Shown here: piece by piece, positions 32,864 to 49,662 of the stretch
Layout of the letters: each line of letters begins with the position of its first letter
Position numbering within the stretch: position 1 is the first letter of the stretch
NCBI RefSeq assembly: GCF_004570385.1
Contig: NZ_SPQL01000007.1
Span: 1 to 64,000 of the forward strand
Direction of reading: 5' to 3'
Length of the DNA stretch: 64,000 bases
Source: Blastococcus sp. CT_GayMR19
GTDB lineage: Bacteria > Actinomycetota > Actinomycetes > Mycobacteriales > Geodermatophilaceae
Made by a program: the position numbers and the translations under genes
The notes under the pieces: model-generated
The model's input: the letters and a program-made list of their open reading frames with translations, nothing else
The model's database searches: none
Told to the model about the DNA's origin: nothing

Positions 32864-33904
32864 TCAGCGGGTGACGGTAGGGACGTGCCCGTTCTCGCGG
32901 GCGACCATGCGCTCGCGCTGCGGGATCACCGTGTACTTCGGGTCTCGAGCGCTGACCATGCCGGCGTCGAAGACCCCGAAGCGGGTCAGCAGCGAGCCGG
33001 CGGCCAGGAGTGTTCCTGACGCGACCGCCCCGAGCCTGGTGCGCCCGGCCACCACGGTCAGCCCCGCGCCTGCCGCGGTGCACGCCTTCGCGGCTCGCAT
33101 CAGCTGTCCGGCCCGGCCCTCGTGATACGGCTCGCTGACGATCCCGTGGTCGTGCTCGACCCGGTGCACCACCGCCAGTTCGATGGACGCCCCGGCCACC
33201 GCCATCTTCCGCGACGGTCCGGCCTCCGCCACCGGCGTGAAGATCATCGTGAGGCCCCCACCGGCGGCCATCGCCGATCCCGCGAAGACGAACGGCAGCT
33301 GCTCGTGCGGCGCGCGCCACGACGGCACGGCCGTGTTGGCGAGCAGCACCGCGGTGTACGTCGCCATCGGCCCGCCGAACAGCGCCGACACGAGTCCACC
33401 GAAGCGCTTCAGCCGAGGGAACCAGCCGAGCAGCTCCACGGCCGCCGTCGCCCCCGCCGCCGCGCTGAACGGCGACAGGATGTACGTGCCCACCGACAGC
33501 GCGGACGTCGGCTTGATCACGCGCAACATGTGCAGGAACCGCTCCGGCCGGCCCAGGTCGTGCACCAGGAACACCACCGACGCGATCGACCCACCGCCGG
33601 CCACCAGCCGGGACGCGCGGGTCAGCGCCGGCCGGCCGCTGAGGTCGGCCATCGCACCCAGGATCGCCGACGTGCCCGCCGCTCCCCCGAGGAAGAGGTA
33701 GAGCGGCACGTCCGGCGACTTCCACACCGGCGCCTTGATGATCGGGCGCCCGTAGTAGGAGGTGAACTCGGCGTCGTCCACCATCGCGACCTCGCCGACC
33801 GCCCGGCGTCCGCTGCGGCGTCCCTTGCCGCCGCCTTTCTTCTTCCCGACCCAGCCGTCGGCCCGGCGCCAGCCGGCACCCGGCGTCGCCACTCCCTCGG
33901 TCAT
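32864..33904 (-). CDS. nrfD: NrfD-like membrane subunit of formate dehydrogenase
   Basis: This 346-residue polytopic protein of the NrfD/PsrC family has eight or so helices. It has the family stretches SPDVPLYLFLGGAAGTSAIL, VVFLVHDLGRPERFLHM and PMATYTAVLLANTAVPSW. Such subunits carry electrons from an iron-sulfur protein into the quinone pool. It lies 46 bp after the Fe-S subunit gene on the same strand, so the two are co-transcribed. The N-terminus (residues 1-40) is basic and Gly-rich and likely cytoplasmic. A decayed fragment of a relative lies at 19535-19645. Confidence 0.87.
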   Translation of the reverse strand: MTEGVATPGAGWRRADGWVGKKKGGGKGRRSGRRAVGEVAMVDDAEFTSYYGRPIIKAPVWKSPDVPLYLFLGGAAGTSAILGAMADLSGRPALTRASRLVAGGGSIASVVFLVHDLGRPERFLHMLRVIKPTSALSVGTYILSPFSAAAGATAAVELLGWFPRLKRFGGLVSALFGGPMATYTAVLLANTAVPSWRAPHEQLPFVFAGSAMAAGGGLTMIFTPVAEAGPSRKMAVAGASIELAVVHRVEHDHGIVSEPYHEGRAGQLMRAAKACTAAGAGLTVVAGRTRLGAVASGTLLAAGSLLTRFGVFDAGMVSARDPKYTVIPQRERMVARENGHVPTVTR

Positions 33905-33950: not shown

Positions 33951-35003
33951 TCACCGCTTCCGGGATCCGAGGACGGCGGACAGCGCCACCCCGACGATCA
34001 TGGCCGCGCCCGCGATGGCCGATCTCCACATCGCGGGCATGTCGTGGGCCGGGACGATCGGGTCCGGCGGCAGCCCGTAGACCTCCGGCTCGTCGAGCAG
34101 CAGGAAGAACGCCCCGTTGCCGCCGACGCCGTCGTTCTCGTCCCGGCCGTACAGCCGGGCCGTCTCCACGCCCTGCGACTTGAGCGTCGCCAGCCGGGCA
34201 TCGGCCCGCGCCTGCAGCTCGTCGAGGTCCCCGAACTGGATCGACTGCGTGGGGCACGCGGTCGCGCAGGCCGGCATCAGCCCGTCGGTCAGCCGGTCGT
34301 AACACATCGTGCACTTGAAGACCCGGCCGTCGCCCTTGCGCTGGTCGATGACGCCGTAGGGACACGAGGGCACGCAGTAGCCGCAGCCGTTGCAGATGTC
34401 CTGCTGGACGACGACGGTGCCGAACTCGCTGCGGAACAGCGCCCCGGTGGGGCAGGCGTCCAGGCAGCCGGCGTGCGTGCAGTGCTTGCACACGTCCGAC
34501 GACATCAGCCACCGGATCTCCCGGTCCCCCGACTGCGTCGTCTGCGGGTCGAACTCGGCGAGCGCCTCGGCGTTGAGCACGCTGGACTGGGCCTTGGCCA
34601 GGCTGTCCGGCTCGCGCAGGTCGAGGCCGAGGTCGGTCCCCGCACCAGCCCCCGGCAGGCCGACACCCGGCATCGGGAGGTCGACCGTCCGCGCCTGCTC
34701 GATGAAGGCGACGTGCCGCCAGGTGTTCGCCCCGAGCTGGCCGGTGTTGTCGTACGACATGCCCGACAGCCCGAGGGCGTCCCGGTTGCCGTGCGAGTCG
34801 TCCATCGGGAGCGTGTTCCACTCCTTGCAGGCCACCTCGCAGGCCTTGCAGCCGATGCACACCGAGGTGTCGGTGAAGAAGCCGACCCGTGGCGGGTGGT
34901 CCGGCTCGTAGCCGTCCACCTGCTGGACGTCGGGCAGCGGCCCGAACAGGCGGTTGCCGGGATCGTTCTCCTTGAGAGCTGGGCTCGCCGAGCTCACCGT
35001 CAT
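33951..35003 (-). CDS. Formate dehydrogenase iron-sulfur (beta) subunit
   Basis: This 350-residue ferredoxin-type subunit has four cysteine clusters: CIGCKACEVAC, CKHCTHAGCLDAC, CNGCGYCVPSC and CTMCYDRL...CATAC. They would bind four [4Fe-4S] centres as in FdnH/FdhH-type beta subunits. The C-terminus has a membrane helix (MWRSAIAGAAMIVGVALSAV) and a basic end. It takes electrons from the catalytic subunit at 46384-49662 and passes them to the NrfD-like subunit. The ATG at 35003 is preceded by GGGAG at 7 nt. No export signal is present. It is divergent from the NagZ-like gene with a 151-bp spacer. Confidence 0.92.
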   Translation of the reverse strand: MTVSSASPALKENDPGNRLFGPLPDVQQVDGYEPDHPPRVGFFTDTSVCIGCKACEVACKEWNTLPMDDSHGNRDALGLSGMSYDNTGQLGANTWRHVAFIEQARTVDLPMPGVGLPGAGAGTDLGLDLREPDSLAKAQSSVLNAEALAEFDPQTTQSGDREIRWLMSSDVCKHCTHAGCLDACPTGALFRSEFGTVVVQQDICNGCGYCVPSCPYGVIDQRKGDGRVFKCTMCYDRLTDGLMPACATACPTQSIQFGDLDELQARADARLATLKSQGVETARLYGRDENDGVGGNGAFFLLLDEPEVYGLPPDPIVPAHDMPAMWRSAIAGAAMIVGVALSAVLGSRKR

Positions 35004-35154
35004 CGTGAAACTCCCGGGCCGGTCGTCATCGCCACAGTATGTTGGAGCCGAAGATGGGCCGCCCGACGAGCGGTCCCCGCGGCGTCCCGGAGCCCTGTTG
35101 CGTGCACGGCCGGCGGGCTCCGATCCCGACGGTCGACGACGCGTGAGGAGTCGC

Positions 35155-36360
35155 ATGCGCCGGTCAGTGCCCCGACGATCCGCGCTGCTCGCCCTGCTGT
35201 GCTGCCTGGCCACCGCCTGCGCGTCGTCGCCCGTCCCCGAGGCGCAACGGACGGCGGAGCCGGCGCGGTCGTCCGCCGCGGCGACGCCGACCCCGGACCC
35301 TGAAGCCGCGCGGCAGGCGGCACTCGACGCACAGGTGACGGCGACGCTGGCGCGCCTGGACCGGGACGGGCAGCTGGCCCAGCTGTTCGTCGTGGGGGTC
35401 CATCTCGACGACCTCTCCGCGGCGGACCCTCTGGTGCGCGACACCCGGGTCGGCGGGATCTTCCTGCGTGGCCGGAGCACCGTGTCCACCACGGAGCTGG
35501 CCGCGACGACGGCCCGGTGGAGATCGCTGTCGCCGGGCGCAGCGCCCTGGGTCGCCGCGGATCAGGAGGGCGGACGGGTCCAGACCCTCAGCGGCCCGGG
35601 ATTCGGCGCGCTCCCCGCGGCGTGGGAGCAGGCGCAGCTCCCGCCGGCTCAGCTCGCCGCGGTCGCCGACGGGATGGGCGCCTCGCTCGCGAGCGCAGGG
35701 GTCACCCTGAACCTCGCGCCCGTCGCCGACGTCGTCCCGGCCGGGACGGAGGGTGGCAACGCACCGATCGGCGCCCTCGGCAGGCACTACGGCAGCACCG
35801 CCGCGACGATGACCCCGACCGCGCAGGTCGTGATCGACGGCCTCGCCGCGCATGGCGTGACGGCGACCCTCAAGCACTTCCCGGGGCTCGGGCACGTGCA
35901 GGAGAACACCGACAACGCGGTCGGCGTGACGGACACCGTCATCGGCGCGGACCACGAGCAGGTCGCTGCCTTCGGCCGGCTCGCCCGGTCGCCGTCGAGT
36001 CCCTTCGTGATGATGTCGTCGGCCACGTACGCGCAGATCGATCCCGCTGGCCAGGCGGCGTTCTCCCGCCCCGTGGTGACCGACCTCCTGCGCGGACAGC
36101 TCGGTTTCGGCGGTGTCGTGATCTCCGACGACCTGGGTGCGGCCATCGCCGTGCAGGACCTGCCCCCCGGCGAGCGCGCCGTCCGCTTCCTGGCCGCCGG
36201 CGGAACCCTCGTCCTCACCGTGGACTCGCGCGTCGCGCCCGAGATGCTGGCCGCCGTCCGCGACCGGGCGGCAGCCGATCCGGCGTTCGCCGCCGCCGTG
36301 GACGGCGCCGTGCGGACGGCCCTCCTGGCCAAGGCCCGCCTCGGGATGCTGCCGGGCTGA
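35155..36360 (+). CDS. GH3 beta-N-acetylhexosaminidase (NagZ-like) lipoprotein
   Basis: This 401-residue protein has an N-terminal signal ending in the lipobox LATAC. A glycoside hydrolase family 3 barrel follows, with AADQEGGRVQTLSG, the NagZ-type loop KHFPGLGHV (Lys240-His241) and VVISDDLGA (Asp325/Asp326), where the nucleophile lies. It would remove N-acetylglucosamine from muropeptides or wall polymers at the outer face of the membrane. A GAGGAG motif precedes the ATG at 35155 by only 4 nt, and an in-frame GTG at 35143 is an alternative start. It is transcribed divergently from the formate dehydrogenase beta subunit and convergently with the gene at 36392. Confidence 0.9.
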   Translation: MRRSVPRRSALLALLCCLATACASSPVPEAQRTAEPARSSAAATPTPDPEAARQAALDAQVTATLARLDRDGQLAQLFVVGVHLDDLSAADPLVRDTRVGGIFLRGRSTVSTTELAATTARWRSLSPGAAPWVAADQEGGRVQTLSGPGFGALPAAWEQAQLPPAQLAAVADGMGASLASAGVTLNLAPVADVVPAGTEGGNAPIGALGRHYGSTAATMTPTAQVVIDGLAAHGVTATLKHFPGLGHVQENTDNAVGVTDTVIGADHEQVAAFGRLARSPSSPFVMMSSATYAQIDPAGQAAFSRPVVTDLLRGQLGFGGVVISDDLGAAIAVQDLPPGERAVRFLAAGGTLVLTVDSRVAPEMLAAVRDRAAADPAFAAAVDGAVRTALLAKARLGMLPG

Positions 36361-36391
36361 GGGGCCCCTGGGACGGGTCGCCGGCCGCCCG

Positions 36392-37573
36392 TCAGTCGTG
36401 CGGCGAGGTCAGCGTCCGTGCGGCGCAGGCGTTGGCCAGCTGCTCGGCGGTGAGCGTCGGGTAGGTGCTGGCGCACCAGGACTTGACCTGGTCGCTGCTG
36501 GTGAAGCCCACGTCGACGAGGGTGATCCAGTACGCCTGGCCGTCCGCGGCCACGGAGCGCTTGCCGAAGTCGGTGCTGCGCAGGACGAGCACCGACGAGT
36601 CCGACACCGAGGCCACCGCCGCCCGGCTCTCGGCCAGGATGTCGACCGCGTAGAACGTGTGCGTCCCGTTGGCCGCGCTCTGCAGGGGGTCGGTGATGCC
36701 GACGCTCTTGCTGGCCACCTGCGCGACCCAGCGACCGTCGAGAACCAGCCGGGGCAGCGACTCGGTACGCAGCGTCTCGAGCTCGACCAGCGCCTGCTGT
36801 TCGGGAGTGACGGTCGGGCCGGCGGGGGTGGTCGTCGCGGAGCTCCTGGACGGCGTAGCGGAGGCGGAGGCGGACGCGTTGCCGTCCGCCTCCTGGGCCG
36901 CGTCGGCGTCGCCGGGCCCGGGCGCCGCCTCGGACAGCGGGGCACCGAACGCGACCGATGAGGCGTCGTCCTCGATGCCCTGCGGGCGCTGCAGGTACCA
37001 GGCGACACCGATGCCGGCGGCGACGAGGCACAGGACGACCGCCGCGATCAGCATCCGCCGGCCGCCGCTCCCGGCCGGTCCGCGGCGCGACGGCGCCGGG
37101 GGTGGCGGGACGGCCGGTCCCGGATAGCCGACCGGCATGGCCGCGGACGGATGCGTGGCCGCGGACGGTGGCGCGGCCGCGGACGGTGGCGTGGCAGACA
37201 ACCCCGTGGCCCAGGGGGCCGCATGCTTGGCCGGCTTCGCAGCCGGCGCAGGGGGCTGCATCGCGCCGTACGGGTGACCGGCGGGTGGTGCAGCGGGAGC
37301 CCCGCCGCCCGGCCGGCCACCGGAGAACGGTGCGTTGCCGCCGAGACCCGCCGGACCACCCTGCCAGCCGGCCTGCGCCGGCCAGACCGGCGGTGCGGCG
37401 CCCGCGGGTGGCCCGTGGGGCGGCAGGGCATGCCCCGCCGCCGCGGACCGGTCTGCCATCGCCGGCTCCGCGCCGCCGTTCGGACCACTCCCCCGGACGT
37501 CGTCCGTCATTCCGCCCCCGCCGTCCTGCGCCACGCTGCCCCCTGGTGCCGAGTGCCGGCGACGAGCAGCCAT
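36392..37573 (-). CDS. Proline-rich membrane-anchored protein
   Basis: This 393-residue protein has about 170 residues of Gly/Ala/Pro-rich cytoplasmic sequence, one helix (about 174-193, MLIAAVVLCLVAAGIGVAWY) and an extracytoplasmic part. That part comprises an Ala/Ser-rich linker and a compact domain of about 130 residues (from VTPEQQALVELETLRTE) with two cysteines near the end. No family was recognised. It is the last of a run of minus-strand membrane proteins (36392-42168). An internal ATG at 37510 is an alternative start; neither has a clear ribosome site. Confidence 0.65.
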   Translation of the reverse strand: MAARRRHSAPGGSVAQDGGGGMTDDVRGSGPNGGAEPAMADRSAAAGHALPPHGPPAGAAPPVWPAQAGWQGGPAGLGGNAPFSGGRPGGGAPAAPPAGHPYGAMQPPAPAAKPAKHAAPWATGLSATPPSAAAPPSAATHPSAAMPVGYPGPAVPPPPAPSRRGPAGSGGRRMLIAAVVLCLVAAGIGVAWYLQRPQGIEDDASSVAFGAPLSEAAPGPGDADAAQEADGNASASASATPSRSSATTTPAGPTVTPEQQALVELETLRTESLPRLVLDGRWVAQVASKSVGITDPLQSAANGTHTFYAVDILAESRAAVASVSDSSVLVLRSTDFGKRSVAADGQAYWITLVDVGFTSSDQVKSWCASTYPTLTAEQLANACAARTLTSPHD

Positions 37574-37680
37574 TGATACGTGCCGTTCCGGAACGCCGCG
37601 AGCCTAGGTGGCGCCACCCCGGTTGTGGAGCTTCCGCCGCCTCGCGCCGTGCACGGCGGGTCGCACCCGCCGTGCCGAAC

Positions 37681-39948
37681 TCATTGGGGGACGACGGTCA
37701 CGCGGAACGTGCCGGATTCACCGAAGTAGTCCTCCACGCTGAGTTCGTACATCTGGGCCGACGACTCGTAGTACGGGAAGACCGTGGCCGTCGAGTAGTA
37801 GTACCCGGGTGAGTCGCTGCTGACGGTCGACCCGTCCATGGTGAGCAGCTCCACGTACGGGTAGACGGATCCCTCGCCCTCGACCTCGATCGCCACCTCC
37901 TGACCGGCAGGGACGAACACCCGCATGGTGGAGGGCTGCGAGCCGGCGACCGTGCCGGTCACCGAGCTCCCCACCGTCAGCACGTCCGCGGGCAGCGTCT
38001 CGATGTCGACGTCCTGGTCAGCGGCGACGTTGAGGAAGTGGCGGCCGGTCTCGGCGGGCTCGAAGACCGAGGTCCAGACGGTCTCGCCGCTGGGCGTCAG
38101 GATCTCCACGAGGTCGTCGTTCCCGGTGCCGAACAGCACCACCTCGCCGGCCGTGGCGTCGAAGCTCAGCATCCGCGCACCACAGGCCCCTCCCCCTGCG
38201 GCGGGGACGGTCGACGGGACCGTCACCTCCTCGACGGAGGACAGCGTGGGGCTGATGCTGAACGACCCGGACTCCCCGCCGACCACCAGGACGCGGTAGC
38301 GACCGGCGTCCTCCGCGAGCACGGCCTGTGAACTGGTCGGTCGGCCGTCCGGCCCGTAGATCGACCATCCGGCGGAGTTGTCGACGCAGGGGGAGAACAC
38401 CTTCCCGGCCGGGACGTCCATCTCGTACAGGGCGTAGTCGTAGGGCTGCTCCACCGAACCGTCGAGCGTCTTGCCCTCCTCCAACTGCCCGTCGACCCCG
38501 CCGAACTGGGGCACGTGCAGGAGCGATGCCACGTCGTCGGCGTCGAGCCGCGCCACGAGGCGTCGCGTCTCGGCGACCACCGTCGCCATCGGGCTGAGGT
38601 ACCAGCGCCCGTCGACCTCCTGGGTGAGGAGCGTCAGGGAGGGGAACTCGGACGCGACCTCGGACCTGACTCCCGCATCGGTGAGTGCCTGATCGAGGCA
38701 GCCGCCCTCGGGGTCTCCGTTCTCGACGTAGCTGAGGCAGTTCCGGTCCAGCGTCCAGGTGATGAAGTCCCGGTTGCCGGCCAGGGAACCGTTCGCCGAA
38801 CGGATGGTCACCGGCACCCGGTCATCGACCTCGTCCCCCGCTGTGGCGTTCACGGCCTCGACCGTCAGCTGCGTCTCGGACTGCAGCTCCGCCAGCGCAC
38901 CGTCCTGGTGCAGCGACGAGACGATCGCGTCCCGGTAGTGGTAGAGAGCGGCGGCCTCGTCCGGGCTGAGCAGGTCGAGGAACCCGTCGACGTCGTACCT
39001 GGCGAGCGCCTGGGCCGCCTCCTCCACGGCCGCGGTCGCCGAGTCGGCACCGGTACCGGTGAGGTCGATCTCCTTCGAGAAGTCCGGAGCCGGCAGTCCC
39101 TGGTTCACCCGCCACAGCTCGAGCAGCGTGTACGTCGGGCTCACATACCACTTGCCGTCCCGCTCCACGGTCATCAGCCGCAGCGGCGCTCCCTCGGTGG
39201 CGTCCCGGGTCACCTCGACCAGGTCGGCCGAGCCCTCGGTCGCGCGCCGCACGTCGCCGTCGGCGATCCGCAGCGGCCCCTGCAGCTTGTCGGGGTCCAG
39301 CGCCCAGGAGACCGTTCCGCTGGTGATGGTCACCGACGCGACGTCCGGCCCCAGCTCCTCGGTCTGCACGGCGACGTCGTCGAGACGGAGATCGAAGCCG
39401 GCGAACGGGTTGTCCTTCGCGGCGACGCCGGTGCTCGTGGCCTTGGATTCGATGGTCTGGTAGAGGTCGACGATCGGGCCGACCTCGCCGGGGGGCAGCA
39501 GGCTGAGCGCGGTGACCGCGTCCTCGCCGTCCGCGGCGGCCGAGAGCTCGAGTACGGCGGCCGACGGCGAGTCGGCGCCGCCGTTGGGCCCGGTGAACTG
39601 GTCGTAGACGAAGTAGCCGACGACACCGAACACGCCGAACGCGGCCACGCCGCCGATGCCCGTCAGCAGACCCCGCCGGCTCTTCCGCGGACCGGCAGGA
39701 GACGCCGTCGGCCCGGCCGACCAGACCGGTGCGGTCCCGGCGTCGGCGAGCGGCGGCTGCTGCACGTACTGGGGTAGGGGCCCGGCGCCCTGCCGAACCG
39801 GCTCGGAGGTGGCGACGACGGGCGGCAGGGGCGCGCCGGCGGCAACCGGCGCCGCGACGGCGACCGGCACCCCGACCGGTGCGCCGCAGTTCTCGCAGAA
39901 CCGGGCACCCTCCGGGAGACGTGCTCCGCAACTGGGGCAGAACTTCAT
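37681..39948 (-). CDS. Zinc-ribbon membrane-anchored protein with external repeat domains
   Basis: This 755-residue protein begins with a zinc ribbon (MKFCPSCGARLPEGARFCEN; Cys4, 7, 18 and 21) and a Pro-rich linker, with a helix at about 93-115. About 640 residues lie outside: two similar NTF2-like/DUF4878-type modules (about 125-290 and 295-460) and C-terminal beta modules (about 480-755). The zinc-ribbon-plus-helix layout is common in actinobacterial proteins of unknown function. Its ATG overlaps the stop of the upstream gene by 4 bp. It may sense or bind something at the envelope; no enzyme motif was seen. Confidence 0.72.
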   Translation of the reverse strand: MKFCPSCGARLPEGARFCENCGAPVGVPVAVAAPVAAGAPLPPVVATSEPVRQGAGPLPQYVQQPPLADAGTAPVWSAGPTASPAGPRKSRRGLLTGIGGVAAFGVFGVVGYFVYDQFTGPNGGADSPSAAVLELSAAADGEDAVTALSLLPPGEVGPIVDLYQTIESKATSTGVAAKDNPFAGFDLRLDDVAVQTEELGPDVASVTITSGTVSWALDPDKLQGPLRIADGDVRRATEGSADLVEVTRDATEGAPLRLMTVERDGKWYVSPTYTLLELWRVNQGLPAPDFSKEIDLTGTGADSATAAVEEAAQALARYDVDGFLDLLSPDEAAALYHYRDAIVSSLHQDGALAELQSETQLTVEAVNATAGDEVDDRVPVTIRSANGSLAGNRDFITWTLDRNCLSYVENGDPEGGCLDQALTDAGVRSEVASEFPSLTLLTQEVDGRWYLSPMATVVAETRRLVARLDADDVASLLHVPQFGGVDGQLEEGKTLDGSVEQPYDYALYEMDVPAGKVFSPCVDNSAGWSIYGPDGRPTSSQAVLAEDAGRYRVLVVGGESGSFSISPTLSSVEEVTVPSTVPAAGGGACGARMLSFDATAGEVVLFGTGNDDLVEILTPSGETVWTSVFEPAETGRHFLNVAADQDVDIETLPADVLTVGSSVTGTVAGSQPSTMRVFVPAGQEVAIEVEGEGSVYPYVELLTMDGSTVSSDSPGYYYSTATVFPYYESSAQMYELSVEDYFGESGTFRVTVVPQ

Positions 39949-40403
39949 GACCGAACTCCTGAGGCTGCAGCGGCGTCGCGCCGTGTACGAGGGGACTTTC
40001 TGAAGGGGGCCGGAAGCGCCACCAGGGCGACACCACCGGCGAGGGCCAGGCCCGGGCCGAGCAGGGCGAAGTCCGGGCCGCCCCGGGGCACCGCGATGAG
40101 AACCGCGAGGACGACGAGGACGACCAGGACGAGAAGTGCTCCGAGGGCACGCAGGGCGAGAACGGCCCCCCGGCGGGGCAGCACGGCGGTCAGGACGAGC
40201 GCCGCCGCCGCGGACAGCGGCACCGCGAACCAGACGGAGGCCAGTGCGGTCAGCACCGGCTGGTGCACCACCTCGTCCAGGGCGAGTGCGAGAGAGGCCG
40301 TGTCCCAGCCGTTGCGGCCGACCGCGCCCGTGCTGCTCCAGGGCAGCACGGTCGCGATCAGTACCGCGGCGGCGGACAGCACACAGCCGAGCTGGCGCCG
40401 CAC
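39945..40403 (-). CDS. Small multi-helix membrane protein
   Basis: This 152-residue protein has about four hydrophobic helices and a basic C-terminus. It overlaps the zinc-ribbon gene at 37681 by 4 bp and starts 13 bp after the stop of the gene at 40417, so it belongs to the same operon. The GTG at 40403 is preferred; a GTG at 40451 would overlap the upstream gene by 35 bp and add an Arg/Ser-rich N-terminus. The function is unknown. Confidence 0.6.
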   Translation of the reverse strand: MRRQLGCVLSAAAVLIATVLPWSSTGAVGRNGWDTASLALALDEVVHQPVLTALASVWFAVPLSAAAALVLTAVLPRRGAVLALRALGALLVLVVLVVLAVLIAVPRGGPDFALLGPGLALAGGVALVALPAPFRKSPRTRRDAAAASGVRS

Positions 40404-40416
40404 CGACCGATGCCGG

Positions 40417-42168
40417 CTAGTAGACGGGCGGCGTCGGCTCGACCGCCGCACCGAACCGACGACGGACGCCTGCGACGAACCCGCCGGAGACCTTGGCTGC
40501 GACGACCGGAGCGAGCAGGCCGGTCAGCACACCCCAGATCGCGAGGACGAACGCCGCCATGAGGGGGTTGAACATGATCGATCCGTTGGCGGCGGTCGTG
40601 AACTCCGACGCCTCACCGTCGACGCCGATCCGGAGCAGCAGGGTGGCGACGAACGCGACGAGGGCGAGCGCCCCGGCGTACCGGAAGCCCTCCCGACGGG
40701 CGTCCTCGATCGTGTTCTGGCGCACCGCGAGGGCGGTGGCCACGAGTACCATCACTGCCAGGAGCAGCACGGGAGCGAGCCAGAACCATGCGCTGGTGTC
40801 GGTGAAGGTGAACAGGGTGATGCTCTCGGAGCCCTGCGGCGTGAACTGACCCAGCGGGGTGGCGGTCGTGGAGCCGTCCACGTTCATCGGCACACCCGCC
40901 GCCCACAGCACGCTGGCCAGGGCCCCGTTCCCGGCGCCCAGCACGGCACCCCCGAGCTGGGCGAGCTTGTTGTCCTCCTCGATGAGGCCGTAGATCAGCC
41001 CCGCCAGAACGGCGAGCACCCCGACCGAGAACACCGCCACGGCAGCGAACAGCGGGGCGAGCGCCTTGTCCCGGACCACGGCCCACCGGCCGGGCAGCAC
41101 GGTCGAGCGGTGGAGCAATGCGGTCAGGCCCAGCACCGCGACCGCGAACAGCAGCGCACCGATCACGGTGGAGACGACGCCGACACCGAGCCGCCCCACC
41201 AGCCCGATGACGTCGGTGGCCTCGGTCGAGTACCGGGTGAGGAGGGACAGCGGGAGGAAGAAGGCGGTGAACACCAGGGCCGTCCGCACACCGTGCAGCA
41301 CGACCTCCGTCGTGCTCGTCGGCCCGAGCTTCCGCACCTGCTTGGCGAACAGCCAGCCCAGGAGGCCCAGGCCCACCAGCGTGACGGTGAGCGGGAGCAG
41401 GCCCACGCTGAACGACGTCCCGAACGTCTCGGCGTCGGCCTCGGCGTACGCGTCTCCGCCGACGGCCAGGCACGCGCCGGCCAGGACGAGAGCCAGCGTC
41501 TCCCGGAAGCCGACGCCGCCCTCGGTCAGGAGGAGCATGCCGACCAGCGAGACGAGGAGCATCGCACCGACCGAGATCGCGGCGGTCCGGGCAGCACCGC
41601 CCCAGTCGCCGGTCAACAGTGCGTCGACGGCACTGCGACCGGGGGTTCCGGTCCGCGCGGGTCCGGCCGCGGGCGCTGCTCCCCACGGGGCGGAGGCCGG
41701 CTGGGCCGGCCCGGCCGGGTAGGACGCGGTGGCCGCCCACGGCTGCTGGGGCTGGCCGGCGTACTGCTGGTCCGCGTACGGCGACGGCTGGCCGGAGTAC
41801 GACCCCGGCTGGTTCGGGTACTGCGCCTGCTGACTCGGGTACTGCGCCTGCTCGCCGGGGTACGTCGGCTGAGCCGGGTACGCCGGCGGGACAGGCGGCT
41901 GCTGAGCGGAGTACGCCGGCGGGACAGGCGGCTGCTGGGCCGCGTAGATCGGCTGCGGTGGCGGCTGGTCGGCGCCGGCCGCGGTCGGGTACTGATCCCC
42001 GTCGTACTGCTGGGCCTGCGTCGTCCGGGCCTCGACGCTCCCCTGACCCGCGCCCGGCGCCGCCGGCTGTCCCACGGGAGGTCCGGCCACGGCTGCGCCG
42101 CAGTTGGCGCAGAAGCTGGCGCCGGGCACCCTCTCCGCACCGCAGCTGCTGCAGTAGGTCCCCGTCAT
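40417..42168 (-). CDS. Zinc-ribbon polytopic membrane protein
   Basis: This 583-residue protein has an N-terminal zinc ribbon (Cys6, 9, 20 and 23; YCSSCGAERVPGASFCANCG) and a long Pro/Gln/Tyr-rich cytoplasmic linker with repeats such as QQPPVPPAY (about 70-165). Eight to ten transmembrane helices lie between about 190 and 565. The function is unknown. It is first in a three-gene run with the genes at 39945 and 37681, two of which share the zinc-ribbon design, pointing to one membrane complex. Confidence 0.7.
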   Translation of the reverse strand: MTGTYCSSCGAERVPGASFCANCGAAVAGPPVGQPAAPGAGQGSVEARTTQAQQYDGDQYPTAAGADQPPPQPIYAAQQPPVPPAYSAQQPPVPPAYPAQPTYPGEQAQYPSQQAQYPNQPGSYSGQPSPYADQQYAGQPQQPWAATASYPAGPAQPASAPWGAAPAAGPARTGTPGRSAVDALLTGDWGGAARTAAISVGAMLLVSLVGMLLLTEGGVGFRETLALVLAGACLAVGGDAYAEADAETFGTSFSVGLLPLTVTLVGLGLLGWLFAKQVRKLGPTSTTEVVLHGVRTALVFTAFFLPLSLLTRYSTEATDVIGLVGRLGVGVVSTVIGALLFAVAVLGLTALLHRSTVLPGRWAVVRDKALAPLFAAVAVFSVGVLAVLAGLIYGLIEEDNKLAQLGGAVLGAGNGALASVLWAAGVPMNVDGSTTATPLGQFTPQGSESITLFTFTDTSAWFWLAPVLLLAVMVLVATALAVRQNTIEDARREGFRYAGALALVAFVATLLLRIGVDGEASEFTTAANGSIMFNPLMAAFVLAIWGVLTGLLAPVVAAKVSGGFVAGVRRRFGAAVEPTPPVY

Positions 42169-42527
42169 GCGTTCGTCCTCCTGGAACTGCCTGTTTGCGC
42201 CGATCGGCGCGACTGGCCGTCAGATTAGGGACTGCGTTTCGCGAACCCACGGCATTCGAGCCCGACGTGACCAGCAATTTCCCCCGGCCGACGTGATTCG
42301 CACCGTCAGCCCCTGCTGTCCCTCTCGCCGCACGGCCGATGCGCGTCCGCGGCGGCGGCCCCTGATGCAGTCGATCCCCACACCGGCTGCTCGGCCGGCC
42401 GAACACCTCGACGGCGGGCCCTTCCGCGACATTTCGGGAGCCCACCGGCTCGGTTCTCCACGATGAGCCCGCTGGTGATGCAGCATTCGGCTCCGCAGCG
42501 ATTCGATTCCGGACGAACGGATGTCAG
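42169..42527. other. Intergenic between divergent genes
   Basis: This 359-bp region is between the zinc-ribbon operon (leftwards) and the PASTA/vWA pair (rightwards). Both promoters are expected here. No convincing promoter boxes, hairpins or genes were identified. Confidence 0.35.
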
Positions 42528-43895
42528 GTGGACCCGCAGGACCGGCAGCCAGAGCAGCCCCAGCGACGCGCCTGGCCTCCGGCCGCGAACCCTCCCGTGC
42601 CTCCGGCCGCGAACCCTCCCGTGCCACCGCCGTCGGGCCCGCCCGGGAGCGAGGTGTTCCCGGGATCGTTCACAGCTTCCCCACCGCCCGCCGTGCCTGG
42701 GGTGCCTGTCGAAGGCACCCGACCGGCAGCGGCAGCCGGGACACCGGTACCCATACCAGGAGTTCCTCCCCGCCCGGAGGCCACCCAAGGGTGGGCGGCG
42801 CCGGTGGACGGCATCGGGCAGCCGGAGGCTCCGTACCCGCCGGACGGCGCGCTCCCGGCGGACGGCGCGCTCCCGGCGGACGGCGCGCCTCCGGCGGACG
42901 GCGAGGCGACCGCGCCTCCGGGCAAGCGACGACGGATCCCGTGGAAGCGGCTGGCGCTCATCGGGGTCGTGCTCATCACGCTCGGGGTGTTCTCGCTCGG
43001 GGTCGCCACCGGGTGGGCGCTGGGAAGTCGAAGTGCCGGCCCGAGCGGGGAGACGGTCACCGAGGTCATCGCCGCACCGACCGATGCCGCCGGGGGCGTT
43101 CCGGTGCTTCCCGACGTCCGTGGGCTGCTCCTGGTCGACGCGCAGCAGGCCGTGGTCGACGCCGGCCTGCCCGTCGACGTCGTCGAGACCGCCGACGCGC
43201 CCTCGGCGCTGGCCGCCGGCACGGTGCTGCGACAGGACCCCGTGGGCGGCACGACGAAGGTCTCGAAGGTCACGCTGTACGTCTCGGTGCCCGGTGCCGT
43301 GCCCGACCTCGTCGGCCAGACGGCGGACGACGCGCGCACCGCGCTGCTCCAGCTCGGTGCGGAGTTCCAGCAGGAGCAGGTGTTCGACCCCGCGGCCGCG
43401 GAGGGCACCGTGCTCGCGCTCGACCCGGCGCCGGGCAGCCCCCTGACCAGCATGATCACCGTGACCGTCGCGGGCCCGGCGGCCAGTATCTTCCTCGCCG
43501 ATCTCAACCCGGTCGAGGGCGGCTGCAGCAAGGACGACACGTCGATCAACGGCACGGACTTCCCGAACTCGTTGCTCTGCGGCGCCAGCTCGTACGAGAG
43601 CACGGCCGCCTATCTGGTCGACCGGGTGACCACGAGCCTGGACATGACCGTGGGGATCAGCGACGACAGCGACACCGACGTGTCGGTGCGCATGGTCGTG
43701 CTGGCCGACGGCCGGCCCGTGGCGTCCGTCGACGTCGGCTACGGGCAGTCCCGGGAGATCTCGGTGCCCACGAGCAACGTGCTCCGGGTCGAGATCCAGT
43801 ACTCCTCGACCGGCGAGGGCTCCGGACGCCTCGCACTCGGCAACGCGCGGGTGACCGGCAGCCCCGAAGGCATCAGCTCCCTGGACACGCAGTGA
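42528..43895 (+). CDS. Membrane protein with two PASTA domains and an NPCBM-like domain
   Basis: This 455-residue protein has a Pro/Ala-rich cytoplasmic region (1-130), a basic stop and helix at about 141-165, and two PASTA domains (about 192-254, VPVLPDVRGLLLVDAQQAVV; about 257-316, PDLVGQTADDARTALLQLG). An NPCBM-like beta-sandwich follows (about 318-444). PASTA modules usually bind peptidoglycan or muropeptides, and NPCBM modules glycans, but no kinase or transpeptidase domain is attached here. It overlaps by 4 bp with the vWA-SGNH gene, so the two are probably made in fixed ratio. The start codon is GTG at 42528 with a weak ribosome site. Confidence 0.75.
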   Translation: MDPQDRQPEQPQRRAWPPAANPPVPPAANPPVPPPSGPPGSEVFPGSFTASPPPAVPGVPVEGTRPAAAAGTPVPIPGVPPRPEATQGWAAPVDGIGQPEAPYPPDGALPADGALPADGAPPADGEATAPPGKRRRIPWKRLALIGVVLITLGVFSLGVATGWALGSRSAGPSGETVTEVIAAPTDAAGGVPVLPDVRGLLLVDAQQAVVDAGLPVDVVETADAPSALAAGTVLRQDPVGGTTKVSKVTLYVSVPGAVPDLVGQTADDARTALLQLGAEFQQEQVFDPAAAEGTVLALDPAPGSPLTSMITVTVAGPAASIFLADLNPVEGGCSKDDTSINGTDFPNSLLCGASSYESTAAYLVDRVTTSLDMTVGISDDSDTDVSVRMVVLADGRPVASVDVGYGQSREISVPTSNVLRVEIQYSSTGEGSGRLALGNARVTGSPEGISSLDTQ

Positions 43896-46339
43896 CGGTT
43901 CTCCGCCGCGCCGTCCTCGCCGCCGCGGCGCTGGTCATGGCGACCGGCGTGTTCGTCGTGCCCGTGTCGCCCACCGCCGCGGCGCCGAGCGACCCGATCC
44001 CGTTGGCGGCCTCGCACCCCGTGCTGCTGGTGGTCGACACCTCGGGGTCCATGGGGGACGACGACGTCGCCGGCGTCCAGAAGATCGAAGGCGCCAAGAC
44101 CGGACTGCTCCGCCTGCTCAACCGGCTGCCGCAGCAGACGGTCATGGGCCTGCGCCACTATCCCGCCGGCAGTGGAGGGTGCGACACCGGCGAGGAGGTG
44201 ATCGACGTCGCCAAGCGGGCGCCGGCCAGCATGAGCGCGGAGATCCGCACGCTGACCGCGAGCGGGGACACCCCGACCGCCGAGGCGCTGCAGGCCGCCG
44301 GGGAGGATCTGCTCAGGAACGGTTTCACGGAGGCGACGATCATCGTCGTCTCCGACGGCCAGAGCACCTGCGCCGACCCGTGCCCGGTGGCCCGCAAGCT
44401 CATCTCCAGCGGGCTCTCCGTGACCATCGACACGATCGGCTTCTCCCTCGCCGCCGACGACCCCGCCCACCAGGAGCTGACCTGCCTGTCGGACGCGACC
44501 GGCGGCACGTACACGCCGGCGGACAGCGCCGACTCGCTCGCTGACCGCCTCTCCCAGTTCGGCGAGGCGATCGTGTCCCTCGACGCGAAGGCCGCAGGCA
44601 CCTTCTACCCGGAGTCGCAGACCGAGCTGGAGGTCACCGCCACGGTGACCAACAGCAGCTCGCAGCTGGTGACGGACGTGCGCGTCGACCTGCGCTTCCT
44701 CCCGGGGGCCAGCGCGGGCGCCCCCGCGGTGGTGGCTCCCCTGCGGATCCTCGGCAACCTCGAGGCCGGCAAGAGACGGGAGGTCTCCTGGCGGGTGCCG
44801 ATGACCACCGCGAAGACCCAGGGCGAGCTGAAGTACACGGCCCGGGCGATCAGCTCCGGGGCCAGGCCGGTGGAGAAGGGCGGCACGGTGAAACTGCGTG
44901 CCGGCCTGTCCATCGACGACGCCGGCAAGCTGTTCCAGGACGCCGACCACGTCGTCGTGCTCGGTGACTCCTTCTCCTCCGGCGAAGGTGGCGGACGGTA
45001 CGAAGAAGCGATGGGGGCCTGCCACCGCAGCCCGAACACCTACGCGGTGCAGCTCTTCGGTCAGGCCCGGGTGACGAACCTGGCCTGCTCGGGGGCTGTC
45101 GTCAAAGATCATTCCGACCCCAATTACGGACGGGCTGAGGACGGCACATCACCACTGCGCAGCCAGCGCGCCCAACTGAAAGACGTCGATGACATCGACC
45201 TGGTCATGCTGACCATGGGTGGGAACGATGTGCATTTCGCGGACATCATCACGAACTGTGCCGCCGGTGTGGGCTGCGACGGCCTGCTGATCTGCACCGG
45301 AAGGCAGATACCGAGCCTGAAGGCTTCATGCGAGGCGGAAGCCTCCGCCAACCCGGTCTTCTGGGAATTCGCCCTGGGTGACCTCCGCACACAGCTCGTC
45401 GAGTACTACAAGACCGTTCTGGGGGAGACCGGCGCCGCCCCGGTGGTCGTGCTTCCGTACGTCAACGTCGTCCCGGTCGACGATCGCGGAGCCAACGCCT
45501 GCTTCTCGGGCCTTCCGGGGGTGTCCCGTCAGGAGCTGGAGCTGATCCGCTGGCTGCAGGGCGAGCTCAACCGGAAGATCGCTTCCGCGGTCGCCGAGGT
45601 GCGCGATTCAGGCACCGCCGACGCCGGCAGCCGTCTGCACTACGCGGCCGAGGTCGAGACGGCGGTGCTGCCCAACCACACCATTTGCGACACTCGGGAC
45701 CCCTGGGTCGTCCCGATCGGCGAAAAGCTGAACGGTCGCGAGAAGAACGAGCTGGTACACCCGACCGCGGCGGGATACCAGGCCATCGCCGGCGCCCTGC
45801 TGCGGTGGTCGTCGCGGGAGAACCCGCCGCCGCTGGACGACAGCGTGCCCATCCCGGCGTCGTACCTGAACACAGGCGTGAACGCGATCGGTGGCGCGGT
45901 CGACGGCGTCAAGGGCTGGATCGACGACCGCGTGGACGCCGTTCGGGAGATCGACCTGAGCGGACCGTTGCGGAACTTCACCGCGCCGGCCGGCCGGCCG
46001 ATCACTCTCTTCGGCAGCGGGTACGCGCCGGGTGTCCTGGTCACCGTCGGCATCGCCAGCACCATGCAGACACTCGGCAGTGCCTACGCCGACGAGAACG
46101 GCGAGGTGCGGCTCACGGTGACCGTGCCCGCAGAGCTGGGCGGCGACCACACGGTCTACGCCGCCGGTTTCGACCCCGACGGGAACTACCTGGTCCAGGG
46201 GCAGGCGCTCGAGGTGACCGACCCGCCGATCTGGGGTTCCCTCGGCGTGGGGCTGCTCGGCGCTCTCCTGATCCTGGGCGGCTGGCTGGTCGTCCGCGTG
46301 GCGTGGCGGCGCCGTCAGGCGGTGCCGGACGCGGCGTGA
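43892..46339 (+). CDS. Surface vWA - SGNH-hydrolase fusion protein
   Basis: This 815-residue protein has a signal segment (about 5-31). A von Willebrand A domain (about 42-225) carries the metal-binding DTSGSMG at 49-55, with further motif residues near TASGDTP and VVSDGQS. A beta-rich linker (about 235-335) leads to an SGNH/GDSL hydrolase domain (about 350-640). Ser360 lies in VLGDSFSSGEG, with LTMGGND (440-446) and His623 in VHPTAAGY. A C-terminal Ig-like module (about 690-775) and a membrane helix (about 781-803) end in basic residues. SGNH enzymes hydrolyse esters such as acetyl groups on polysaccharides; vWA domains bind proteins through a metal. The GTG start overlaps the PASTA gene stop. 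Confidence 0.82.
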   Translation: MTVLRRAVLAAAALVMATGVFVVPVSPTAAAPSDPIPLAASHPVLLVVDTSGSMGDDDVAGVQKIEGAKTGLLRLLNRLPQQTVMGLRHYPAGSGGCDTGEEVIDVAKRAPASMSAEIRTLTASGDTPTAEALQAAGEDLLRNGFTEATIIVVSDGQSTCADPCPVARKLISSGLSVTIDTIGFSLAADDPAHQELTCLSDATGGTYTPADSADSLADRLSQFGEAIVSLDAKAAGTFYPESQTELEVTATVTNSSSQLVTDVRVDLRFLPGASAGAPAVVAPLRILGNLEAGKRREVSWRVPMTTAKTQGELKYTARAISSGARPVEKGGTVKLRAGLSIDDAGKLFQDADHVVVLGDSFSSGEGGGRYEEAMGACHRSPNTYAVQLFGQARVTNLACSGAVVKDHSDPNYGRAEDGTSPLRSQRAQLKDVDDIDLVMLTMGGNDVHFADIITNCAAGVGCDGLLICTGRQIPSLKASCEAEASANPVFWEFALGDLRTQLVEYYKTVLGETGAAPVVVLPYVNVVPVDDRGANACFSGLPGVSRQELELIRWLQGELNRKIASAVAEVRDSGTADAGSRLHYAAEVETAVLPNHTICDTRDPWVVPIGEKLNGREKNELVHPTAAGYQAIAGALLRWSSRENPPPLDDSVPIPASYLNTGVNAIGGAVDGVKGWIDDRVDAVREIDLSGPLRNFTAPAGRPITLFGSGYAPGVLVTVGIASTMQTLGSAYADENGEVRLTVTVPAELGGDHTVYAAGFDPDGNYLVQGQALEVTDPPIWGSLGVGLLGALLILGGWLVVRVAWRRRQAVPDAA

Positions 46340-46345
46340 TGCTGC

Positions 46346-46383
46346 GGGGGTGGTTCGCGGCCGACAGGCCGCGAACCACCCCC
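46346..46383. terminator. Terminator between convergent genes
   Basis: A perfect 17-bp stem (GGGGGTGGTTCGCGGCC and its complement) with loop GACA fills the gap between the vWA-SGNH gene and the formate dehydrogenase alpha gene. It can stop transcription from both sides. Confidence 0.9.
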
Positions 46384-49300
46384 TCAGTCCTCCACCGGTG
46401 CCCGGCCGCCGACCGGGATGGCGCCGGACTCCATCCCCGCCCGCCGGCGGTACTCCTCCAGGAACGGGAGCAGCTCCGGTCCACGCGGACGGCGTCCCGG
46501 CCGGATGTCGCAGGTGGCGACCTTGCTCTCCTGGATGTGGGTGTTCGGGTCCAGGGTGATGCCGAGCAGGTCGTTGCCCGAGTCGCCGGTCGAGACACCC
46601 TGCGAACCCCAGTGGTAGGGGACGCCGATCTGGTGCACGATCCGTCCGCCCTTGAGCCGCAGCGGGCGCATGCGCTCCGTCACCAGCACGCGCGCCTCCA
46701 CCGCCGCGCGGCCGGTGACGACCGTCGCCCAGCCGCCGTTCTCGAGCCCGCGCTCGTCGGCCAGCTGCGGGCTCACCTCGACGAAGAACTCCGGCTGCAG
46801 CTCCGCCAGATACGGCAGCGTGCGGCTCATCGACCCGGCCGTGTGGTGCTCGGTGAGCCGGTACGTGGTGAAGGCGTAGGGGAAGACGTCGCTCTGCGGC
46901 GGGTGGGTCCGGTTCCAGGGCGCCCGGATCTGTTCCTTGGCCGGGTTCGACTGGACGCCGTACAGGGGGTTCTCGACCGGCGACTCCGCCGGCTCGTAGT
47001 GCGCCGGCAGCGGCCCGTCGACGACGCCCTTGGGCGCGAACAGCCAGGCCTTGCCGTCGCTCTGCATCACGAACGGGTCGGCACCGCCGATGGCGTCCTG
47101 CGCCCTGGCGCCGTCCGGCGGCACGTAGTCCGGGCGCTTGGTGGCCTCGAAGTCGGGCACGTCGCCGGTCGAGTCCCAGCGGCCGGCCGCCTCGTCCCAC
47201 CACACGTACTTCTTGCGCTCGCTCCACGGCTTGCCCTCGGGGTCGGCCGAGGCGCGGCTGTAGAGGATGCGCCGGTTGAGCGGCCACGCCCAGCCCCACT
47301 CGGGGGCCACCTCGTTCTGCTCCTGACGCGGTTTGCGCCGGGCGGCCTGGTTGACCCCGTCGGCGTAGACCCCGCAGTAGATCCAGCAGCCACCGGACGT
47401 CGATCCGTCGTCCTTCATCTGCATGTAGGACGACAGCGGCTCGCCGTCGGGGCCGAAGCCGTTGATCTCGCGCAGGATCGCCTCGGCGTCCGGGTCCGCC
47501 GTCTCGCCGTGCGTCGGGTATTCCCAGGTCAGGTCCAGCAGCGGCCGGTCCCGCGGATCCGTGGAGTCCTTCAGCCGCTCCCGCAGGATCCGGCCCAGGT
47601 GGTAGTAGAACCACAGGTCGCTGCGGGCGTCGCCCGGCGGCTCGACCGCCTTGTCCCGCCACTGCAGCATCCGCTGCGTCTGGGTGAAGGTGCCTTCCTT
47701 CTCTACGTGCGAGGCGGCCGGCATGAGGAAGACCTCGGTCGCGATCTGCTCGGTGACGAGCTCGCCGGTCTCGATCTCCGGCGCGTCGTACCAGAAGCTG
47801 GCCGACTCGATCTCCTGGAGGTCGCGGACGACGAGCCACTCGAGGTTGGCCAGCCCCAGGCGGTTCATGCGTGAGTTCGGGTGCCCCACCGCCGGGTTCT
47901 CCCCCACCAGGAAGTAGCCGGTCACCTTCCCCGCGACCATGTCGCTGATCGTCCGGTAGGAGCTGTGGTCCCCGTCGATCCTGGGCAGGTAGTCGAAGCA
48001 GAAGTCGTTCTCCGGCTGCGCCGCGTCCCCCCACCACGCCTTGAGCAGGCTGACCATGTACGACCGCTGGTTGCCCCAGAACCCGCCGGTCCCGGCGGCC
48101 TCGGCGGTGTACTCGTCCAGCGACTGGTGCTGGTGGGCGTGCGGCATCGGCAGGTAGCCGGGCAGCAGGTTGAACAGCGTCGGGATGTCGGTGGAGCCCT
48201 GGATGCTGGCGTGCCCGCGCAGCGCCATGATTCCGCCGCCGGGGCGACCCATGTTGCCGAGCAGAGCCTGCAGGATCGACGCCGTCCGGATGTACTGCGC
48301 GCCCACCGTGTGCTGCGTCCAGCCGACCGAGTACACCCACGCCGTCGTCCGCTCGCGGCCGCTGTTGGCGGTGACCCACTCGGCGACCTTGGCGAAGGCC
48401 TCCGGCTCGATGCCGCAGACCTCGCTCACCATCTCGGGCGTGTACCGGGCGAAGTGCCGCTTGAGGATCTGGAACACCGTGCGCGGGTGCTGCAGGGTCT
48501 CGTCCCGCTTGCCCTTGCCGTGCAGCGGCGGCCCGCCGGAGCCCGCGGCCTCCGCCTGCTTCGCGTCCTTCACCGCGCCCTTCTGCGAGAGCCGCTCCTG
48601 CTGCTGCGCCTCCCCCGGCTGGTCCTCGGAGATACCGTCGGCCCCGGTCTCGTCCGGCTCGTACTGCCAGCTCTTCTGGTCGTAGTGCTGCGTCTCCGGG
48701 TCGAAGCCGGAGAACAGTCCGTCGAGGTCCTCGGTGTCCTGGAACTCCGCACCGATGATCGTGGCGGCGTTGGTGTAGGCGACCACGTACTCCTTGAAGT
48801 ACAGGTCGTTGCTCAGCACGTGGTTGACCAGCGCGCCGAGGAAGACGATGTCCGAGCCGGCGCGCAGCGGGACGTGCAGATCGGCGACGGCGCTGGTCCG
48901 GGTGAACCGCGGGTCGATGTGGATGACCTTGGCGCCCCGCGCCTTGGCCTCCGTCACCCACTGGAAGCCCACCGGATGGCACTCGGCCATGTTCGAGCCC
49001 TCGATGACGATGCAGTCGGCATTCGCGAGGTCCTGCTGGGTGTTCGTGGCACCGCCACGACCGAACGAGGCGCCCAGACCGGGCACCGTGGAGGAGTGCT
49101 ATATGCGCGCCTGGTTCTCGATCTGAATGGCTCCCAGCGCGCTGTAGAGCTTCTTCATGAGGTAGTTCTCCTCGTTGTCGAGGGTCGCCCCTCCGAGGCT
49201 CGCTATCCCCATGTTCCGGCGCAGTGTCCGGCCTTCGGCGTCGACGTCCTGCCAGGTCTTGCGACGGGCCTCGAGCACCCGGTCGGCGATCATCTCCATC

Positions 49301-49662
49301 GCCGTGTCGAGGTCGAGGTCCTCCCACTCGGTCCCGTTCGGGCGGCGGTACCGGATCTTCGTCACCCGTGTCGGACTGGTGACCAGCGATTTGCTGGCGC
49401 TGCCCTTGGGGCAGAGCCGGCCGCGGTTGACCGGCGAGTCCGGATTGCCCTCGATCTGGACGATCTTCTCGTCCTTCAAGTACACGTTCTGCGCACAGCC
49501 GACGGCGCAGTACGGGCAGACGCTCTTCGCGATCCGGTCGGCGGTCGCGGTCCGCGACACCACCGCCTCGGTCGCCTTGCTGCGCGCGGCCTTGCCGCGA
49601 CCCAGGGGGTCGGATCCCGTGAGCTGCCGGTACACCGGCCAGGCGTCGAGCCAGGTCTTCAC
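46384..49662 (-). CDS. fdhA: Formate dehydrogenase catalytic (alpha) subunit, UAG-encoded selenocysteine
   Basis: This molybdo/tungstopterin oxidoreductase has 1092 residues including one inferred selenocysteine. The N-terminal [4Fe-4S] site uses Cys49, 52, 56 and 84 (CPYCAVGC, then RGRLCPKGSASKS). Codon 188 is TAG, and the frame continues unbroken for 904 more codons. The surrounding reading QARI-U-H-SSTVPGLGASFG matches family enzymes, which have Sec (or Cys) followed by His at this place. A SECIS hairpin follows. Formate oxidation occurs at Mo/W-bis-MGD with Sec as ligand; electrons go to the beta subunit at 33951. There is no twin-arginine signal, so the subunit should stay in the cytoplasm. 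The GTG at 49662 overlaps the previous stop by 4 bp. A plain nonsense mutation is the alternative but fits the hairpin poorly. Confidence 0.93.
49069..49087 (-). promoter_or_regulatory. Bacterial SECIS hairpin of fdhA
   Basis: On the mRNA the stem GGUGCCC/GGGCGCC (7 bp, one G-U) closes a GGUCU apical loop. Exactly 18 nt separate the UAG from the loop, the same spacing and loop sequence as known from the Escherichia coli fdhF SECIS. SelB would bind here to deliver selenocysteinyl-tRNA. Confidence 0.85.
49099..49101 (-). other. In-frame TAG read as selenocysteine
   Basis: This single amber codon lies at position 188 of the formate dehydrogenase alpha subunit. It is flanked by intact coding on both sides and followed by the SECIS hairpin. 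The usual selenocysteine codon would be TGA. Recoding requires a tRNA-Sec with a CUA anticodon, which is not in this window. Confidence 0.85.

Follow-up and report, generated by a model that had tools for sequence, protein, structure and literature searches.

A UAG codon proposed to encode selenocysteine in a formate dehydrogenase of Blastococcus sp. CT_GayMR19, and its occurrence across the Geodermatophilaceae

Introduction

The gene for the alpha subunit of a formate dehydrogenase, fdhA, in Blastococcus sp. CT_GayMR19 is interrupted by a single in-frame TAG, raising the question of whether this codon is read and, if so, as which amino acid. The gene (46384..49662, minus strand) lies in a stretch of 64,000 nt (assembly GCF_004570385.1, contig NZ_SPQL01000007.1, positions 1 to 64,000 of the forward strand) that we call the window. 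An earlier note, made from the letters alone, had proposed that UAG specifies selenocysteine (Sec) here, and had referred to a 2016 report of the same variant in Geodermatophilus and Blastococcus. Papers that cite this report attribute to Mukai et al. (2016) both a UAG-decoding tRNA-Sec and UAG-containing selenoproteins in the two genera (PMC5330540, PMC10778597, PMC8124441). In the Secmarker survey, three Geodermatophilaceae with a CUA tRNA-Sec are listed, together with an AhpC carrying a Sec-TAG in Blastococcus saxobsidens DD2 (PMC5330540). The use of UAG for Sec in this family has been in print since 2016-2017, and CT_GayMR19 adds another genome. The 2016 study by Mukai and colleagues reportedly included 75Se labelling.

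Results

Translation of fdhA yields 1092 residues with one internal stop, the TAG at codon 188 (49099..49101, minus strand), and ends at a TGA terminator; the frame is thus continuous except for this codon, as the earlier note had claimed. The two sides of the stop match one and the same protein model, NF041513 (formate_DH_Act): the N-terminal part of 187 aa covers model positions 2-185, and the C-terminal part of 900 aa covers positions 192-1067 with 1570 bits against a cut-off of 1400. Together they span positions 2 to 1067, which places the product among the alpha subunits of the NF041513/FdnG type. A search of solved structures aligned the TAG residue with the Sec, printed "X", in two entries, 1h0h_A (QARI-X-HS) and 1kqf_A, which is E. 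coli FdnG (QARV-X-HG), so that codon 188 does occupy the selenocysteine/cysteine position of the family. His follows the TAG here as it follows the X in both structures, and in one homologue (L067) the codon at this position is TGC. Compared with six relatives, substitutions are in excess at third codon positions both before and after the TAG; since this enrichment persists downstream, the post-TAG part is under purifying selection as protein, with an NG86 omega of about 0.31-0.49 as against 0.16-0.28 upstream.

The genome also encodes a tRNA suited to this codon. With the Rfam tRNA-Sec model, a tRNA-Sec with anticodon CUA was found at positions 455087-455178 of another contig (G000:C14), scoring 66.7 bits against a cut-off of 47. 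It sits in a cluster ordered selB-selA-tRNA-Sec-selD, so that all three genes named by the earlier note adjoin it, and SelA, SelB and SelD each score above their NCBIfam cut-offs, completing the set for bacterial Sec decoding. The active-site residue of SelD is Cys, and selB itself terminates at TAG. The other match over the Rfam cut-off (C39:73061) was rejected as a second tRNA-Sec, being a tRNA-Ser with anticodon UGA. The CUA tRNA is therefore the sole genuine tRNA-Sec of CT_GayMR19, and no UCA tRNA-Sec was found in this genome.

Directly 3' of the TAG, a hairpin with the sequence GGTGCCC-GGTCT-GGGCGCC (49069..49087, minus strand) occupies nt 15-33, the T of TAG being nt 1, and starts 11 nt downstream of that codon. 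Its apical loop, GGTCT at nt 22-26, contains the G-U expected of a SECIS element, and in a direct comparison E. coli fdhF showed the same loop at the same spacing, as well as the T at nt 17. Across 35 distinct TAG sequences the stem positions pair in 99.6% of cells, compared with 29-59% when the stem is slid; over 35 distinct TGA sequences the figure is 94%. The stem covaries, with two-sided changes at pairs 18-30, 21-27 and 15-33. Stem and loop are both lost in the homologue of Actinomadura logoneensis, which has UGC (Cys) at the site and is a natural negative control. The folding energy of the fdhA hairpin is not unusual (z -0.74); we therefore rejected energy as evidence for a SECIS and used covariation in its place, making the support for this element comparative.

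A second selenoprotein family in CT_GayMR19 has a TAG at its Sec site. A UGSC protein with the motif GD-TAG-GSC is encoded at G000:C41:181363-181782, inside a longer frame. Its match to NF041046 (103 bits) falls below the family cut-off of 125, and its motif and TAG position agree with those of members above the cut-off. The hairpin that follows this TAG has G23-U24 spaced as in fdhA. Among the UGSC matches listed in the family, those containing a stop all have one TAG, and none has TGA; the paralogues examined that lack a stop (L203-L210 and L268) carry TGC. In two genomes with the CUA tRNA (G031 and G032), the UGSC matches lack a stop, and the xGSC motif was not found in the stretch examined.

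To describe how far this arrangement extends, we used 115 genomes from the GTDB family and 395 from the class. The core of the CUA tRNA was present without mismatch in 104 of the 115 family genomes, representing nine genera of twelve; the remainder comprise two incomplete genomes and nine MAG-like ones from three genera, and seven of these nine have a UCA tRNA-Sec. Exactly one TAG lies in a full-length or site-spanning formate dehydrogenase match over the curated cut-off in 100 family genomes, and no intact fdhA that spans the site in the CUA genomes departs from this pattern. Among the best 80 named FdhA relatives, the site was readable in 79, with TAG in 24, TGA in 54 and TGC in one (L067). 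All 24 TAG records are of Geodermatophilaceae type (Geodermatophilus, Blastococcus, Klenkia, and MAGs assigned to the family or labelled Frankiales) and make up the full set of such named loci spanning the site (24/24), while the 54 TGA and the single TGC belong to named relatives outside the family. Among the 395 class genomes, the TAG version of the formate dehydrogenase motif was confined to the two that belong to the family. One TAG in each of 100 genomes and in 24 of 24 named loci shows that the codon is neither a sequencing error nor a chance event. Further stops accumulating in relatives, which the earlier note had named as evidence against its reading, were looked for: the single TAG is kept, and broken copies were seen only in one genome, G080. 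In both fdhA copies of that genome (L263 and L264), the frame is disrupted in the region of the Sec site and the SECIS, reflecting either a real loss or an assembly artefact.

Aligned over the anticodon region, the tRNAs read CGGTCTTCAAAACCG (UCA) and CGGCCTCTAAAGCCG (CUA), and the switch amounts to two changes in the anticodon together with one in the pair that closes the anticodon stem. SelA from 14 rows with the CUA tRNA forms one clade with a support of 100/100; in the same tree, the placement of the UCA genera as sister to this clade is not settled. Three genomes of the same GTDB family (G071, G073 and G074; L125-L127) have a UCA tRNA-Sec with selA and selB, and no NF041513 formate dehydrogenase over the cut-off. 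One contig (C255 of G110; L122 and L123) holds two complete sel clusters, each with selA, selB, selD and a CUA tRNA-Sec, about 59 kb apart.

The remaining subunits of the complex are encoded at a distance from fdhA. The 4Fe-4S electron-transfer subunit gene fdhB (33951..34982, minus strand; start codon uncertain) and the gene for an NrfD-type membrane anchor (32864..33904, minus strand) follow closely behind fdhA in every relative examined. In the window, about 11.4 kb of unrelated genes (34983-46383), including zinc-ribbon, PASTA/NPCBM and vWA-SGNH types, lie in between. Beyond nrfD, the next gene matches the one at that place in a related locus (L010), and the simplest interpretation is therefore that DNA was inserted between fdhA and fdhB. 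With fdhA about 11 kb from fdhB-nrfD, it is less sure than in the relatives that the complete complex is expressed.

One genome, G059, whose formate dehydrogenase locus is identical to that of Geodermatophilus sp. LHW52908 in 5001 of 5001 bases, may use two Sec codons. The CUA tRNA-Sec and sel genes typical of the family are present, along with a TAG formate dehydrogenase and a TAG UGSC protein; in addition, contig C17 bears a UCA tRNA-Sec (81.8 bits; L120 1169-1263, minus strand). Beside this tRNA lies an AhpD-like gene with an in-frame TGA (L120 1579-2157, plus strand; TIGR01926, 112.6 bits against a cut-off of 81.8), which reads CFY-TGA-MESH and is followed by a hairpin. The case is weakened by this candidate SECIS, whose loop (GUU) has fewer nucleotides than the formate dehydrogenase loop and lies two nucleotides closer, and whose folding energy is ordinary. 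In the contig as assembled, the first 17 kb or so are lower in GC and contain transposases, and ordinary high-GC genes of chromosomal type follow; selA, selB and selD are all missing from contig C17. The six nearest AhpD homologues in the phylum sample, which are more distant, all have one in-frame TGA at the same position; in one of the six, a UCA tRNA-Sec and part of a selB also fall inside the same 3.4 kb. No close AhpD relative was found among the 395 genomes of the class, and no relative of the cassette among the viral contigs searched. Plasmid matches to the cassette cover the tRNA only, and the two examined lie in UCA sel-fdh clusters. On these plasmids, from Arthrobacter sp. YA7-1 (L277; typed conjugative) and Tsukamurella tyrosinosolvens (L278), the selB-selA-tRNA-Sec(UCA)-selD-nrfD-FeS-fdh cluster is complete, showing that a plasmid can bear the Sec trait together with its formate dehydrogenase.

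Discussion

The TAG codon, the anticodon of the tRNA, the sel genes, the conserved and covarying SECIS and the family-wide concordance were all observed directly, and they point to Sec insertion in CT_GayMR19. FdhA is very probably the Sec-containing alpha subunit of a formate dehydrogenase, with UAG as the Sec codon and the SECIS, SelB and the CUA tRNA-Sec to decode it; this best explains the data, and the second TAG selenoprotein family lends further support to the proposal of the earlier note.

Other readings of the codon have to be weighed against this one. An automatic annotation would split fdhA, and both copies in G080 are broken, which would suit a pseudogene arising by nonsense mutation, or a TAG that is a misread TGA or TGC. 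That 100 genomes share one lone TAG in their site-spanning match refutes this through conservation across the family, and purifying selection downstream of the codon, the conserved SECIS and the presence of a CUA tRNA-Sec leave this explanation extremely unlikely. It is very unlikely, too, that a near-cognate or serine suppressor tRNA bypasses the UAG with a residue free of selenium. Partial conversion of Ser-tRNA-Sec could yield some Ser, but a full sel set with a matched anticodon, the SECIS, and the interchange of Sec and Cys at the same column (TGC in L067 and in the UGSC paralogues) favor selenium.

The existence of a CUA tRNA would also suit the decoding of UAG as pyrrolysine, and ARAGORN does label the tRNA as tRNA-Pyl. 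Rfam, however, assigns it to tRNA-Sec, it is located between selA and selD, and codon 188 falls where formate dehydrogenases have Sec or Cys. Since PylS was not found over its cut-off in CT_GayMR19, the better of two weak matches reaching 26.5 bits against 178.15 and both presumably being related class II synthetases, we give pyrrolysine a vanishingly small chance and exclude it. The same tRNA might be taken to mean that UAG has been reassigned genome-wide, to Sec or another amino acid. Yet TAG terminates 22 of 138 predicted genes (about 16%) in the loci of CUA genomes, compared with 53 of 352 in actinobacteria with UGA-Sec, selB of CT_GayMR19 itself ends in TAG, and the recoded sites bear a SECIS, making a general reassignment extremely improbable. 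With UAG remaining the terminator of about 16% of genes, a share equal to that in the UGA-Sec relatives, recoding must depend on context and on the SECIS.

For UAG-Sec decoding in CT_GayMR19, we propose the following model. SelA would turn Ser-tRNA-Sec into Sec-tRNA-Sec with selenophosphate from SelD, and SelB would carry the CUA Sec-tRNA, bind the SECIS and deliver Sec at UAG, presumably in competition with release factor 1; UAG elsewhere would remain a terminator. As to its origin, the anticodon would have changed from UCA to CUA with an adjacent stem change from U31-A39 to C31-G39, and the Sec codons would have changed alongside. Most likely, the switch from UGA to UAG happened once, in the ancestor of the nine genera, as the single SelA clade suggests. 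About five sixths of genes end in UGA, and we speculate that a shift of Sec to the rarer UAG may have eased the conflict with termination.

A whole bacterial lineage thus appears to have moved selenocysteine from UGA to UAG, with a matched tRNA, the machinery, the SECIS and a second gene in support, and the limit of the switch is located by the seven genomes of three other genera in the GTDB family that keep UCA. In these species, fdhA would be cut in two by annotation pipelines that allow Sec at UGA alone. For LHW52908, we tentatively raise a scenario that is plausible and somewhat short of probable, in which it uses both UAG (CUA tRNA; formate dehydrogenase and UGSC) and UGA (island UCA tRNA; the CxxU of the AhpD-like protein) with one set of SelA and SelB. 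If true, a mobile cassette brought the standard Sec codon back to a lineage that had given it up. The locus offers a natural test of whether a single SelB can serve two Sec codons in the same cell.

The nine-genus distribution, the UCA genera and the genome with two tRNAs were not found in the literature searched, in which Mukai et al. (2016) was represented by citing papers. As described there, those systems share with ours the CUA tRNA-Sec and a TAG at the Sec position of both formate dehydrogenase and the UGSC-motif selenoproteins; here, the known distribution grows to nine genera with 104 genomes, and its boundary with the UCA genera is located. The Secmarker survey (PMC5330540) concerns the same family and the same code variant, and the UCA/UGA cassette of LHW52908 was not found in the portion consulted. 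In pyrrolysine decoding, a CUA tRNA likewise reads UAG, but here the tRNA is of Sec type, PylS is absent and decoding is predicted to depend on a SECIS. Canonical UGA-Sec formate dehydrogenases (NF041513 of Actinomycetota; E. coli FdhF and FdnG) share the enzyme family, the Sec position, the loop and spacing of the SECIS, and SelA, SelB and SelD, and differ in pairing UGA with UCA, with release factor 2 as the presumed competitor, where CT_GayMR19 pairs UAG with CUA and would contend with release factor 1.
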